Part shown: positions 10,799 to 32,306 of the stretch, piece by piece | Layout of the letters: each line of letters begins with the position of its first letter | Numbering within the stretch: position 1 is the stretch's first letter | From: Actinomyces slackii | GTDB lineage: Bacteria; Actinomycetota; Actinomycetes; Actinomycetales; Actinomycetaceae | Length of the DNA stretch: 64,000 nt | NCBI RefSeq assembly: GCF_900637295.1 | Contig: NZ_LR134363.1 | Coordinates: 1,054,001-1,118,000 of the forward strand | Direction of reading: 5' to 3' | Notes under the pieces: generated by a model | What the model saw: only the letters and a program-made list of their open reading frames with translations | The model's database searches: none | Told to the model about the DNA's origin: nothing | Program-made: the position numbers and the translations under genes

Positions 10799-10871
10799 GC
10801 CCTCGTAGCTCAGGGGATAGAGCACCGCTCTCCTAAAGCGGGTGTCGTTGGTTCGAATCCAATCGAGGGCG
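10799..10871 (+). tRNA. tRNA-Arg (anticodon CCT)
   Basis: A 73-nt cloverleaf. The acceptor stem is GCCCTCG with CGAGGGC, the D arm has GCTC and GAGC, and the anticodon stem CCGCT/AGCGG carries loop CTCCTAA, whose anticodon CCT (10832-10834) reads AGG. The T loop is GGTTCGAATCC and the discriminator base is G. The CCA end is not encoded. Confidence 0.95.
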
Positions 10872-10976
10872 CGACTGTCCGGCGGCTGCCGCCGCCACGG
10901 ATGCTGCGGCCTGTGAGACTCGGGAGAACTGGCTGCCTCCCCGCCGCGTCGTCACGCTCTGGGCGTGCCGGCCCGT

Positions 10977-10982
10977 TATCTT
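10977..10982 (+). promoter_or_regulatory. -10 box of a leaderless promoter (TATCTT)
   Basis: TATCTT ends 7 nt before the ATG at 10990, and no ribosome binding site is present. Confidence 0.45.
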
Positions 10983-10989
10983 GGGCGCT

Positions 10990-13900
10990 ATGACGCCTCC
11001 ATTGTTCTCCTTCGGCCGCAGACGGCGATCCGCCGCCCCCGCGACGAATGAGCCTGACGAGGTCATGGAGCGCCCCGCGCAGCCGCCGATCGCCGAGCCC
11101 GCCCCGCCCCCGCGCGAGCCCGCCGCTCGGCCTCCCCGCGATCCCGGGCCTGCGCCCGCCCCTCCCCTGACAGAGGCCGATGAGGAGCGTCGCGAGCGCA
11201 TCGAGGCCGCCCTCAGCGTCTGGCGCGACGAGCTCGTGGACCTGGGCGGCGTGGCCAGCCTGGACGACATCGCCTCCCTGGAGGGCGTCGTTGATCTGAC
11301 CGCCGCCCATCCCTCGGGGCTGGCCCAGCTCTACGCCGGCCGCTCCACCCAGTTGACCAGCCTGGTGCGCGAGCACGGCGCGCTGGGCGTGGCCCGCCAG
11401 TCGCTCGAGGAGGTCGCCACTCGCTCCGAGGTCCTGGCCCGCAGCTTCGGCGTGGCCCCCGTCTGCCTGGCCATCGGCGTGGCCACCTGGAACGAGACCG
11501 TGCCCGACGACGACCAGGAGGACCGGGCCGAGGCCGACCTGCGGCCCGACCCCGCCACGCCCTATGACCTGGGAGTGGCGCAGTCCGGCGACGCTGACCG
11601 CACCGCCCAGATCCCGCATGTCGAGCGCATCGCCGCCGAGCACGCCGCCCAGGCCGCCATGGCTGCCGCCGGCTTCCTCCCGGCCGAGGACCCCGGCCCC
11701 CGCGTGCGCACGGTCAACGCCCCCGTTCTGCTGCGGCCCGTGCGCCTGGCCAACGCCTCATCGGATGCCTCCTTGACACTGGAGCCGAGCATCGAGGTCA
11801 ACCCGGTGCTCACCCGCGCGCTGCGCCGCTACCAGTGCAGCGCCGACGTTGAGGGCATCGCCCGGGCGGCCCTGTCCACCGCGGGCTTCACCCCCCGGGC
11901 CGCCCTGGCTCGGATCGGGGCCCTGGGCCGCCAGCACCTGCCGGGATTCGAGATCCATGAGCGGCTGGTGGTGGGGGCCTTCGTCCACCCCGGCCAGGCG
12001 CTGGTCGAGGACTTCGATGCCGTCATCGAGCGCTCCCGCACCTCCGCCCTGGTGGCGGCCCTGGCCGGCGATGAGGGCGCGCGCACCGCACTGGCCGTCG
12101 AGCTGCCCCGCCCTCAGCGGGCGGACCGGCCCACGGGGGCCGAGCGGGGCGTGGGCGACCTGGACCCCGGGCAGCTGGCGGCCATCGAGGCCGTGGGCTC
12201 GGGGGCCAGCCTCCTCATCGACGCGCCCCCGGGATCGGATGTCCCGGCAACGCTGGCCGCGGTCTTCGCCGATGCGGCCGCCTCGGGGCGCACCGTGGTG
12301 CACGTGCCTGCCACCAGCGCCGATGGCCATGCCGTGGCCGATGCCCTGCGCGCGGCTGGCCTGGGCTCCCTGGTCCTGGACCTGACCGAGGACGCCGCCT
12401 GGAGGCTGCACGCCTCGGAGGAGATCCGTGAGGCCATGGGCGTCCAGCCCCCCGAGCTGGATGTGGCCGGCATCGTCGAGATGCGCGAGCGCCTGGAGCA
12501 GGTGCGCGCCCGCCTGGGCGGCTATGTCGCCGCCCTGCACAAGCGCCGCGAGCCGTGGGGGGTATCGGCCTACGAGGCCCTGCAGACCCTGGCGGATATG
12601 ACCAGCCGTCGCTCGCGCACCTCCACCAAGGCGCGCATCGCTCCCGGGCGCCTGGAGCGCCTTGACGAGCCCGGGCTGGAGCGGGCCCGCGAGCTCCTCC
12701 ATCGCGGCCACGCCCTGGGGGTGTTCACCACCGAGGTGGCCTCCAGCGCCTGGAATGGCATCGCCGTGACGGATATGGATGAGGCCACCGACGCGCTGGT
12801 GCATATGCGCGCCCTGTCGGTCGACCTGCTGCCGGCCATCACCGAGCATGTGGACTCGGCCAGCCAGTCGGCGGGCCTGACCCGACCGACCTGCCTGTCC
12901 CAGTGGCAGGAGCAGCTCGAGATGCTCGACGGCGTGCGCGAGTCCCTCGACGTCTTCCTACCGGAGGTCTTCGAGCGCTCCGCCGCTGACATGGTCATCG
13001 CCACCGCCTCCAAGAAGTGGCGGGAGGCCCGGGGCATCTACATGGACGGCTCCAGCCGGCGCCGCTTCACCCGCCAGGCCAAGGACCTGGTGCGCCCCGG
13101 CCGCGTGGTCGAGGACCTGCACGATGAGCTCGTGGCCGTCCAGCAGCGCCGGGAGCTGTGGAATCGCCACCATCCTGACGGCGGCTGGCCGCGCCTGCCC
13201 CAGGGCCTTGATGAGATGGCCCTGGCGGCCTCCCGCGCGCGCACGGCCATGGACGCCATCGAGCCGATCCTGGCCCGCAGCGGGCACACCACCGCACTGG
13301 TGGATCGCCCCTTCGAGGAGGTCCTGGAGCTGGTCCAGGGCCTCGCCGCCGACGACCTCACCGCCCAGAAGCTCCCCGAGGTCAACCGCCTGCGCGCCGA
13401 GCTCGACTCCCTGGGGCTGACGGACTTCGTGGCCGACATCGCCGCCCGGGACGTGCCCGAGGAGCTCATCGATGCCGAGCTCACCTACTGCTGGTGGTCC
13501 TCGCTGCTGTCCCAGATCATGCGTGAGGATCAGGCCCTGGGCGGACTGGATGCCACGGCGCTGAGCCGACTCGCCCAGGGCCTGCGCGACCTGGACGCCG
13601 CCCAGTCGCAGTCCCTGCCCGGGCCCGTGGCCCAGGCCTACGCGCGCCGCGTGCGCATGGCGGTGGATGCGGACAAGGCCGAGGCGCGCGCGCTCTACAT
13701 CGCCCTGGCCCGCGAGGACGGGGTGCCGCTGAGGGACATCATCGCCGCCCACCCGATGGCGCTGGTGGCCAAGCCGGTCTGGATCGTCCCGCCCACCCTG
13801 GTGCCCCAGGTCCTGGACCCCATGGCGCTGATCGACCTGGTGGTTCTCGATGCCAGCGCCCATATGCCGGTGGCGCAGGTGCTGCCGGCCTTCGTGCGCG

Positions 13901-15423
13901 CCGAGCAGGTCCTGGTGGTGGGCGACCCGCGCCGCGGCCAGACCGGCCTGGCCGCCGAGCTCGGGCCCCTGCTGCCCAGGGTGACGCTGCCGACCTCCCG
14001 CAACGCCCTGGACGCCGGCATCGCCTCCTTCCTGTCCGAGCACGGCTACGAGGGCGTCGTCGAGGCGATCCCGGCCCCACCGGGGGCGGGGCGCCTGAGC
14101 CTGGAGCTCGTCGACGGCCGGGGCATGCCGGCCCCCGGGCAGACAGCCGTCGAGACGGTGGCCGCGGAGGTGGACCGCGTCGTCGACCTGGTCATCGATC
14201 GCGCCCTGACGCGCCCGGATGAGTCACTGGGGGTCATCGCCCTCAACGCGCGGCACGCCGAGGCGGTGCGCAGCGCCATCACCCATGCGGTGGCCGGATC
14301 CCCGGCCCTGGAGGACTTCTTCTCCCCGGGGGCGCCCGAGCCCTTCATGGTGGTGGATCTCAGCCAGGCCCGCTCCATCCGGCGCGACCACATCATCCTC
14401 AGCGTCGGCTATGCCAAGACGCCGCACGGACGCACCATCCACAGCTTCGCCTCGGTGGCCGATCATGCCGGGATGGTGGGACTGGTCGAGGCCCTGTGCG
14501 CCTCGCGAGGCGCGACCGAGGTGGTCTCCTGTCTGGCGGCCAGCGACATCGACGCCAGTCGTCTGCACGCCGCCGGGGCCCGGCTCCTGCGCGAGGTGCT
14601 CTCCCGGGCCGAGCACGCCTCGGAGGCAGCCGCCTCGGCCGGGCGCATGCCCGATCGCCTGCTGGTCGACCTCGCCGAGAGGCTGTGGCGAAAGGGCCTG
14701 TCCGTGGTGCCGCGCTACGGCGTGGACGGCGGGGTGCGCATTCCGCTGGCGATCGGCCATCCCGACTTCCCCGACGAGCTGCTCGTGGCCGTCCTGACCG
14801 ATGACGCCGACTACGTCGCCGAGCCGAGCCTGCGGCGCCGTGACCGCTACAGCGTTGAGCGCCTGGTCAGGCGCGGCTGGCGGGTCCACATGGCCTTCTC
14901 CGTGGGGGTCTTCGTCGATCCCGAGGGGGAGGCGGCCGCCGTTGAGGAGCTGGTGCTCGCCGAGCTCATCGCCCGTCAGGAGGCCCAGTCCCCGCATGTG
15001 GAGGCCCTGCCCCCGCGCCTGGAGGACGGCGAGCCGGATCCCGCGCCCCCGGCGGCCTCGCCGGTGGGGGCGGCAGGCGGCCAGGCCCCTGATGATGCGG
15101 GAGACGAGGCCGCGGCCACGCCTGCTGCGGCCAGCGCGGCCAGCTCTGCCAGCGCGGCCGTGGTGGAGGAGGCGGCGCAGGCGCCCTCGGTGGGTGGCGC
15201 CGGCTCGGCTGAGCGTCGGCCACGCCCGCCCATCGCCCAGGGCCTGCCCCTGCAGGCCTACTCCGATGACCAGCTCGATGAGCTCGTGGCCTGGATCCGC
15301 TCAGACGGCCTGGTGCGCCAGGAGAGCGAGGAGATCGAGGAGCTCCGCTCCACACTGGCGCTGCGCCGCCGCGGGGCGGGCATTGACGCCGTGCTGGCCA
15401 ACGCCGTGCGGCGGGCCCGGTGA
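10990..15423 (+). CDS. Degenerate superfamily 1 helicase/Vsr-like nuclease protein
   Basis: A 1,477-residue protein that aligns by eye with the large DUF4011-type SF1 helicase-Vsr endonuclease fusions but has lost their catalytic motifs. Near residue 413 the usual PPGTGKS P-loop reads PPGSDVP. Near 953 the DEASQ box reads DASAH, and near 977 GDPKQ reads GDPRR. Motif VI (usually NVAITRA) reads VEALCAS near 1170. The C-terminal Vsr-like fold (about 1222-1315) keeps the frame RRRDRY and RRGW, but the catalytic Asp of the usual RIDLA is Pro (RIPLA) and the ECDG motif reads LTDD. The N terminus is Pro/Ala-rich. The frame is intact and has normal codon use, so it looks like a maintained pseudo-enzyme, not a decaying gene. 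Its function is unknown; a DNA-binding scaffold is possible. Confidence 0.8.
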   Translation: MTPPLFSFGRRRRSAAPATNEPDEVMERPAQPPIAEPAPPPREPAARPPRDPGPAPAPPLTEADEERRERIEAALSVWRDELVDLGGVASLDDIASLEGVVDLTAAHPSGLAQLYAGRSTQLTSLVREHGALGVARQSLEEVATRSEVLARSFGVAPVCLAIGVATWNETVPDDDQEDRAEADLRPDPATPYDLGVAQSGDADRTAQIPHVERIAAEHAAQAAMAAAGFLPAEDPGPRVRTVNAPVLLRPVRLANASSDASLTLEPSIEVNPVLTRALRRYQCSADVEGIARAALSTAGFTPRAALARIGALGRQHLPGFEIHERLVVGAFVHPGQALVEDFDAVIERSRTSALVAALAGDEGARTALAVELPRPQRADRPTGAERGVGDLDPGQLAAIEAVGSGASLLIDAPPGSDVPATLAAVFADAAASGRTVVHVPATSADGHAVADALRAAGLGSLVLDLTEDAAWRLHASEEIREAMGVQPPELDVAGIVEMRERLEQVRARLGGYVAALHKRREPWGVSAYEALQTLADMTSRRSRTSTKARIAPGRLERLDEPGLERARELLHRGHALGVFTTEVASSAWNGIAVTDMDEATDALVHMRALSVDLLPAITEHVDSASQSAGLTRPTCLSQWQEQLEMLDGVRESLDVFLPEVFERSAADMVIATASKKWREARGIYMDGSSRRRFTRQAKDLVRPGRVVEDLHDELVAVQQRRELWNRHHPDGGWPRLPQGLDEMALAASRARTAMDAIEPILARSGHTTALVDRPFEEVLELVQGLAADDLTAQKLPEVNRLRAELDSLGLTDFVADIAARDVPEELIDAELTYCWWSSLLSQIMREDQALGGLDATALSRLAQGLRDLDAAQSQSLPGPVAQAYARRVRMAVDADKAEARALYIALAREDGVPLRDIIAAHPMALVAKPVWIVPPTLVPQVLDPMALIDLVVLDASAHMPVAQVLPAFVRAEQVLVVGDPRRGQTGLAAELGPLLPRVTLPTSRNALDAGIASFLSEHGYEGVVEAIPAPPGAGRLSLELVDGRGMPAPGQTAVETVAAEVDRVVDLVIDRALTRPDESLGVIALNARHAEAVRSAITHAVAGSPALEDFFSPGAPEPFMVVDLSQARSIRRDHIILSVGYAKTPHGRTIHSFASVADHAGMVGLVEALCASRGATEVVSCLAASDIDASRLHAAGARLLREVLSRAEHASEAAASAGRMPDRLLVDLAERLWRKGLSVVPRYGVDGGVRIPLAIGHPDFPDELLVAVLTDDADYVAEPSLRRRDRYSVERLVRRGWRVHMAFSVGVFVDPEGEAAAVEELVLAELIARQEAQSPHVEALPPRLEDGEPDPAPPAASPVGAAGGQAPDDAGDEAAATPAAASAASSASAAVVEEAAQAPSVGGAGSAERRPRPPIAQGLPLQAYSDDQLDELVAWIRSDGLVRQESEEIEELRSTLALRRRGAGIDAVLANAVRRAR

Positions 15424-15429
15424 CTGACA

Positions 15430-15723
15430 GTGACTGACGAGGGACGGGCAGCCGAGGGCTGGGCGGCGCGCCGGGCCGGGCGCCGTCGTCGGGTGGTGGC
15501 CCTCTCAGCGCGCGATCGCCGGCGCCTGGCGCAGGGCCTGGAGCCCGAGGACCTGGCCCGCCCCGACTACGAGCACGACCCCCTGGCCACGGGCGCCGGG
15601 CAGGATGAGCGGACGGGACGGGCGGAGAGGGCCGGGCGGGCAGGGCATGCAGGGCATGCCGACGACGCCAAAGACTCCAATGACGCCCGCCTCCTGGCCG
15701 ATGTCCCGCCCCACTGGCAGTAG
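15430..15723 (+). CDS. Small hypothetical protein
   Basis: A 97-residue Arg/Ala-rich protein with GTG start, 6 nt after the stop of the large helicase-like gene, so probably translated from the same mRNA. A basic N-terminal half (RRAGRRRRVVALSARDRRRL) is followed by an acidic, low-complexity tail ending in ADVPPHWQ. It contains imperfect AGRAGHAGHA repeats. I do not recognise a family. The clean placement before a bidirectional terminator supports a real gene, but conservation is untested. Confidence 0.6.
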   Translation: MTDEGRAAEGWAARRAGRRRRVVALSARDRRRLAQGLEPEDLARPDYEHDPLATGAGQDERTGRAERAGRAGHAGHADDAKDSNDARLLADVPPHWQ

Positions 15724-26677: not shown

Positions 26678-31981
<5,304 letters not shown>

Positions 31982-32058
31982 CCAAAACCCCAACACGCTC
32001 GGGAAACCCCGAGCACACGGGAACACACCGGGGAACCACAACGAGCACACACACCAAC

Positions 32059-32090
32059 GCACCCACTATACAGTCCACGACCAACCCACA
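32059..32090 (+). repeat. 3' arm of the pre-23S processing stem
   Basis: Complement of 28610-28641; lies 78 nt after the mature 23S end and before 5S. Confidence 0.8.
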
Positions 32091-32187
32091 CACAAAACCA
32101 CCACACAACCGAATACCCGCAACACCGCACCAACCCCCCCCACCCCACACACAAGGGGACACACGAGGAGGGGGAGCCCCACCACCG

Positions 32188-32306
32188 TCTCGGTGGTCAC
32201 AGCAGCAGGGGACACGCCCGGACCCATCCCGAACCCGGAAGCTAAGCCCGCCAGCGCCAATGGTACTGCACCCGCCAGGGTGCGGGAGAGTAGGACACCA
32301 CCGAGC
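32188..32306 (+). rRNA. rrf: 5S ribosomal RNA
   Basis: A roughly 119-nt gene. The ends pair (CTCGGTGGT with ACCACCGAG), and the inner blocks CCCATCCCGAACCCGGAAGC and GGGAGAGTAGGACACC are those of 5S rRNA. Ends are accurate to a few bases. Confidence 0.93.

Follow-up and report, generated by a model that had tools for sequence, protein, structure and literature searches.

The 64,000-nucleotide stretch of Actinomyces slackii DNA analysed here (the window) carries, on its forward strand, a gene for a helicase-nuclease-like protein at positions 10990 to 15423. The protein is 1477 aa long from ATG 10990, or 1480 aa if the in-frame TTG at 10981 is the start, and the frame closes with a TGA ending at 15423. 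A first-pass annotation of this DNA had described an intact 4.4-kb frame with normal codon use. The reading frame is indeed uninterrupted, and its third-position GC of 0.915 is ordinary beside three neighbouring genes (0.88-0.93). A tRNA-Arg(CCT) gene (10799..10872, + strand), which adjoins many relatives of the helicase-like gene, precedes it. Directly 3' lies a small gene (15430..15723, + strand) encoding a 97-aa protein with a basic first half and the C-terminus NDARLLADVPPHWQ. All features of the helicase-like gene described below are on the same strand.

We aligned the window protein with an intact paralogue from the same genome, Hhe and a Comamonas DUF3320 protein. Its motifs fall on PPGTGKS, DEASQ, GDPEQ/GDPKQ, NVAITRA, IDLA and the nuclease motif of these three proteins. 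DAPPGSDVPAT (aa 411-421, 12220..12252) replaces the Walker A sequence (E)GPPGTGKSQT, LVVLDASAH (aa 950-958, 13837..13863) replaces VVFDEASQ of motif II, VVGDPRRG (aa 976-983, 13915..13938) replaces VVGDPKQL of motif III, and VGLVEALCASRGA (aa 1163-1175, 14476..14514) replaces RLNVAITRAR of motif VI. The GK[ST] expected in Walker A of an active SF1 helicase is therefore missing (PPGSDV), the DE of Walker B has become LDAS with loss of the glutamate, and the motif VI arginine is gone (VEALCAS replaces NVAITRA). In the Vsr-like REase_MTES_1575 region (14635..14979) the catalytic D and E of Vsr/PD-(D/E)XK nucleases are likewise absent (RIPLA, LTDD). Every string on which the first-pass annotation had relied (PPGSDVP, DASAH, GDPRR, VEALCAS, RIPLA and LTDD) occurs in the protein. 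Its statement that every catalytic motif is replaced holds for these quoted replacements, but the motif II aspartate (D954), the GD of motif III, the second arginine of motif VI (R1173) and the aspartate of the nuclease ECDG (D1271) are retained. Of the intact motifs that it expected, PPGTGKS, DEASQ, NVAITRA and IDLA are present in the intact own-genome paralogue, but the nuclease motif of that paralogue is LLDG and not ECDG. A possible DUF4011 (PF13195) remnant at 11632..11808 scored 16.4 bits, below the Pfam cut-off of 22.2. The end of the protein (15226..15420) forms a C-terminal tail domain (GLPLQAYSDDQLDELVAWIRSDG...RRGAGIDAVLANAVRR) that has no name and is common to the intact relatives in families f4 and f45.

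The relationship to SF1 helicase-Vsr proteins is long and clear at the level of profiles. A profile of 14 Actinomyces sequences aligned with a profile of six relatives of the intact type over 1098 columns (HHalign probability 100%, E 4.4e-65), with PPGSDV placed on PPGTGK, and the homology spans both RecA lobes of a UPF1/IGHMBP2-like SF1 helicase. The Vsr-like region matched PF18741 over aa 1228-1319 with 40.2 bits against a cut-off of 38.2. Once intact members were included, the family profile matched PDB chains of SMUBP-2/IGHMBP2, Upf1 and Dna2; the PDB chain search with the window protein alone returned no match. Predicted structures, built from a three-sequence alignment, were poor (mean pLDDT 39 for aa 380-1330 and 47 for the Vsr-like part), and the fold assignment therefore rests on sequence profiles. 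The best NCBIfam and PADLOC profiles were ProA (NF058533, 305 bits), PDC-S37 (299 bits) and Hhe (NF042953, 150 bits), which describe anti-phage proteins or candidates for this role. The window protein has the same order of an SF1 helicase followed by a Vsr-type domain, but it scores far below the cut-offs (1500 bits, curated, for ProA and 2000 for Hhe), lacks the catalytic residues, and has, besides the tail domain, a small protein encoded next to it. No relatives were confirmed in viral contigs or found in phage records. The A. slackii genome also encodes a motif-intact 1160-aa relative (PPGTGKS, DEASQ, NVAITRA; L007:10863-14345, C1:546862-550344), by eye near aspartokinase-like and ABC transporter genes, and, in a frame of 1889 aa, a further ProA-like relative (L064, C1:990000-1008000).

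The ProA profile found an orthologue in all 31 Actinomyces genomes. Among the 33 genus sequences (from 30 of the 31 genomes and from L001, L002 and L008, with 32 of the proteins distinct) the Walker A lysine is absent from every one, and the motif II glutamate and the nuclease D and E are absent from 32/32 that are readable there, L038 being a half frame that stops before motif II and the nuclease. In the Actinomycetaceae, all 81 genomes searched (36 genera) gave a match. GK[ST] occurs in none of the 80 family loci that were read, with L120 unsure because its frame starts close to motif I, and the motif VI arginine, nuclease Asp and nuclease Glu are missing from all 79 readable loci, proline always occupying the position of the nuclease Asp. 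The motif II DE is retained in six of the 80 (L093, L094, L107, L111, L116 and L137). A lysine stands in the aligned P-loop column in five (L082, L093, L095, L102 and L111), never after glycine and never as GK[ST]. L093 and L111 have both features, kept or regained, and some genera may therefore still bind nucleotide. The best frame measures 1323-1774 aa in 76/80 family loci; split or cut frames, which were left unmended, occur in L038, L062 (identical to L068), L120, L137 and L139. The expectation that orthologues in the Actinomycetaceae share the motif losses was thus upheld across the genus and, apart from the six loci with DE, across the family. Orthologues with an intact P-loop, which the first-pass annotation had named as grounds for rejecting its reading, were found in other families only (f4, f17 and f45); they point to an active ancestor and do not rescue the Actinomyces protein as an enzyme.

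We estimated dN/dS from 49 close Actinomyces pairs (dS 0.05-0.3) drawn from 21 of the 33 genus loci. The median for the pseudo-helicase gene was low, at 0.115. Medians of the comparison genes in close pairs were 0.061 (universal stress protein, 19 pairs), 0.114 (Glp, 46), 0.148 (an MntR-like gene, 14), 0.186 (5-FCL, 47), 0.204 (a GNAT gene, 47), 0.354 (a SAF gene, 47) and 0.397 (MscL, 47), and the pseudo-helicase gene in these pairs resembles the neighbouring enzyme gene Glp. Contrary to the close-pair value, 354 wider pairs (dS 0.05-0.8, all genus loci except L038 and L062) had a median of 0.418, which we set aside because, in our judgement, NG86 should saturate at such GC content. The tail domain had the lowest of the domain values in this wide-pair analysis. 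The pseudo-helicase gene is under purifying selection in Actinomyces. With the long homology and the common losses, the low close-pair dN/dS supports the original proposal that this SF1 helicase-Vsr protein is a pseudo-enzyme kept by selection.

The gene is nearly universal in the sampled order. Matches at E 0.001 were obtained in 117 of 119 genomes from 20 families, some of them weak or in pieces (G137, E 4e-34), and 67 loci were read, L201 and L173 partially. In a 0.8 Mb genome of family f3 (G158) the gene is kept as a 1205-aa frame (L179). Motif states differ among families. Intact motifs (PPGTGKSQT, DEASQ, NVAITRA, IDLA and E-DG) are found in f4 and part of f17, many order families have lost the lysine and glutamate while keeping motif VI and often the nuclease residues, and in the tree rows of f1, f3, f8, f9, f13 and f20 nearly all motif residues are lost. 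All 59 f17 genomes matched, one (G360) weakly. The f17 loci read (29 new, L216 and four earlier) came mostly from the best-scoring of these 59 genomes, so that the intact state of 28 of 34 f17 rows is not a frequency; L203, L205 and L271-L274 lack the lysine. In the class, 93/118 genomes matched at E 0.001, and, among the matches listed, those of full length from beyond the order belong to f25 (one), f38 (seven) and f45 (one). The f45 member is intact and the f38 members have GRTQT. A tail-domain profile modelled on Actinomycetaceae detected the domain in f4 (2/2), f45 (1/1), f38 (7/7), f13 (5/7), f8 (3/8) and in f6, f11 and f15 (2/3 each); by the same profile it was absent from f17 (0/7), f5, f3, f7, f19 and several other loci, and from all eight loci outside the family, some of which are cut.

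With the motif columns removed, the branching of the gene tree agrees for the most part with the GTDB family codes, the exceptions being L169 of f13 and L188 of f7; in one of the trees f1 is not a single clade. Family f45 branches first, then f25 with f38 (Lys to Arg), then f4 with f17 and then the remainder, the first two forks being weak (51 and 85). The trees contain 25 f1 sequences, six repeat f1 loci having been left out along with the fragments L201 and L173, the loci L163 and L166, and three badly aligned outgroups (Hhe, the own-genome paralogue and the own 1889-aa relative). If residues are never regained, the number of losses comes to five for the Walker lysine, four for the motif II glutamate, five for the motif VI arginine, ten for the nuclease Asp and twelve for the nuclease Glu (this last count including one outgroup row), on a tree that holds none of the six DE-bearing family loci, only L095 of the five with an aligned lysine (set to 'lost' by hand) and two genomes twice (L204/L264 and L211/L270). 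The fewest changes on the tree are likewise 5, 4, 5, 10 and 12. A 75-row clade lacks the lysine and glutamate; inside it, the motif VI arginine is missing from a clade of 47 rows and the nuclease Asp from one of 49. From these patterns, loss seems to have been stepwise and repeated, lysine and glutamate going first and the motif VI arginine and nuclease residues later. Passage mostly by descent, as an old actinobacterial core gene, is the best explanation of the distribution.

In the neighbourhood, tRNA-Arg(CCT) adjoins the gene in several families and was found on the fetched stretch of 26/33 genus, 29/80 family and 16/67 order loci, counts made with short flanks in the family and order loci and with differing tRNA orientation. 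In A. oris the gene order is universal stress protein, helicase, small protein, MscL, SAF, 5-FCL, Glp and GNAT. One A. oris record (L008, NZ_CP116225.1), 415 kb long and labelled a plasmid, carries this core gene block and may be a piece of chromosome. The small protein ends in the pattern [D/E]xRLLxx(V/R)PPHW. By a rule devised after the sequences had been seen ([LRVIMQK]PPH[WFYHA] near the frame end), such an ending is present in 204 of 217 loci, 180 times in the following frame and 24 times at the helicase's own C-end, whereas the reverse strand satisfied the rule in 5/217; the 217 loci include several genomes twice and exclude loci with fewer than 300 downstream bases as well as eight from outside the family. 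Among the 180 following frames, the start nearest the helicase stop lies at -4 in 63 and within -8 to +30 in 149, under a rule that picks the nearest start and so favours small gaps. A small-protein profile matched 73/119 order genomes at E 0.1. The best match was below 1e-3 in 51 genomes, and in 47 of these it falls between -100 and +2000 bases downstream of the helicase; of the remaining four, two sit on other contigs, one is at a distance of 3 kb and one overlaps the helicase further. Pfam and NCBIfam scans of 26 small-protein members gave no convincing family (best E 0.069 and 0.011, each for a single member).

A restriction of the PPHW partner to dead copies of the helicase was considered and ruled out, as the profile and a wider rule including RPPHW find the partner beside intact copies. 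It accompanies both f4 copies and all 35 f17 copies; it was not found in f20 (0/3) or in f45, f25 and f10 (0/1 each). The peptide does not explain the catalytic loss, because it accompanies intact members too. Fusions at the helicase's own C-end, for example in L149 and L150 (f13), L246 (f17) and L200 (f15), hint at a physical association.

We propose that the protein is an ATP-independent nucleic-acid-binding scaffold, derived from a domesticated anti-phage-like enzyme and acting through the PPHW peptide, and we give this reading an even chance. The ancestor would have been an active enzyme built like the ProA/Hhe-type anti-phage proteins, with a UPF1/IGHMBP2-like SF1 helicase joined to a Vsr-type nuclease. 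Within the large clade to which Actinomyces belongs, the ATPase lysine and glutamate would have been lost first and the motif VI arginine and nuclease residues later, while the fold, the tail domain and the neighbouring PPHW-ending protein were kept. Both helicase lobes may bind DNA (or RNA), as may the Vsr-like domain, with neither translocation nor cutting, and the PPHW peptide, supplied by the adjoining frame or fused, may form a complex with the protein and recruit a conserved cellular partner. The protein may have a regulatory or DNA-binding role, as the first-pass annotation had suggested. That an anti-phage-type helicase-nuclease was domesticated order-wide into a core gene, by stepwise and repeated loss under selection, and now serves as a PPHW-linked scaffold on a conserved cellular machine is a wider claim, to which we assign somewhat less than an even chance. 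Intact, half-lost and fully lost states within one order allow the steps from motor and nuclease to presumed scaffold to be compared directly, and the frequent pairing with the PPHW peptide offers a testable interface.

Few conserved bacterial pseudo-helicases are known to us, and among the open-licence papers listed we recognised none on this helicase-like family. PriA of Deinococcus radiodurans is described, in the portion of the report available (PMC4504706), as having lost ATPase and unwinding activity while binding DNA, with evidence for contact with DnaB. There too a helicase was kept after motif loss, but PriA belongs to another helicase family, and that portion notes no nuclease domain or coupled small protein. 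The giant MTES_1575-type proteins, as partly described in PMC3710099, combine HEPN, transglutaminase, SF1 helicase, Vsr and wHTH domains. The window protein likewise has SF1 followed by REase_MTES_1575, but Pfam and NCBIfam scans gave no HEPN, transglutaminase or wHTH match, the helicase and nuclease residues are missing and the gene is a core gene.

A different reading is that the protein is a regulator or decoy subunit of active ProA/Hhe-like paralogues, sitting on their DNA or dimer surface and tuning the anti-phage response. The nearest annotated families are anti-phage proteins, and the A. slackii genome has two other ProA-like relatives, one of them motif-intact. This idea is weakened because the top match in 11/31 Actinomyces genomes is the pseudo-orthologue itself, with no strong ProA-like relative seen beside it, although G018 and G026, which are among the 11, show weak matches in frames of roughly 1000 aa. 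The setting among a tRNA and housekeeping genes also argues against it, and we consider it unlikely. Similarly unlikely is the idea that the protein works alone as an anti-phage or genome-integrity sensor and signals through the PPHW peptide without catalysis. Kinship with anti-phage proteins would fit such a sensor, as would a Pseudomonas aeruginosa locus that is similar by description: in the part of PMC10250203 available, a large core DUF4011 gene, present in every isolate of that study, and a nearby conserved small hypothetical gene flank the defence hotspot cDHS1. Most defence genes come and go. The near-universal presence in the order and the low close-pair dN/dS of the pseudo-helicase gene are unlike that behaviour.

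It is distinctly unlikely that the protein is still an enzyme or nucleotide-binding protein with a new active site, in which the Vsr-like pattern RIPLA(I/V)GHP...LTDD..Y...RRRDR binds metal or nucleotide in another manner. Much of the family shows strong conservation of this pattern, the ECDG aspartate D1271 is invariant in alignment A4, and the loci with DE, with a P-loop-column lysine or with both could be read in this way. However, the P-loop remnant differs among genera (PPGSDV, PPASER and PAHSDD), and the uniform absence of GK[ST], of the motif VI arginine and of both nuclease residues from the readable family loci speaks against this reading. A decaying, functionless relic, for which the lost residues, the split or cut frames and the wide-pair dN/dS might be cited, is hardly credible against the close-pair dN/dS, the long frames in most family loci and the matches in nearly all order genomes, the 0.8 Mb genome included.

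Several observations count against the scaffold reading: the poor structure models, the family loci with DE or an aligned lysine, the wide-pair dN/dS, and the PPHW peptide's presence beside intact helicases but not in f20, f45, f25 and f10. A further one is a Nonomuraea stretch (L275:7001-7096, PEQTADDTDLGWGE...NRPPHW) that directly precedes a GNAT-like frame and has no match to the helicase within 14 kb; the PPHW peptide may occur on its own in another order. Elsewhere in the window, a complete rRNA operon (16S, 23S and 5S) at 26678-32306 accounts for a lower-GC, G-rich stretch.
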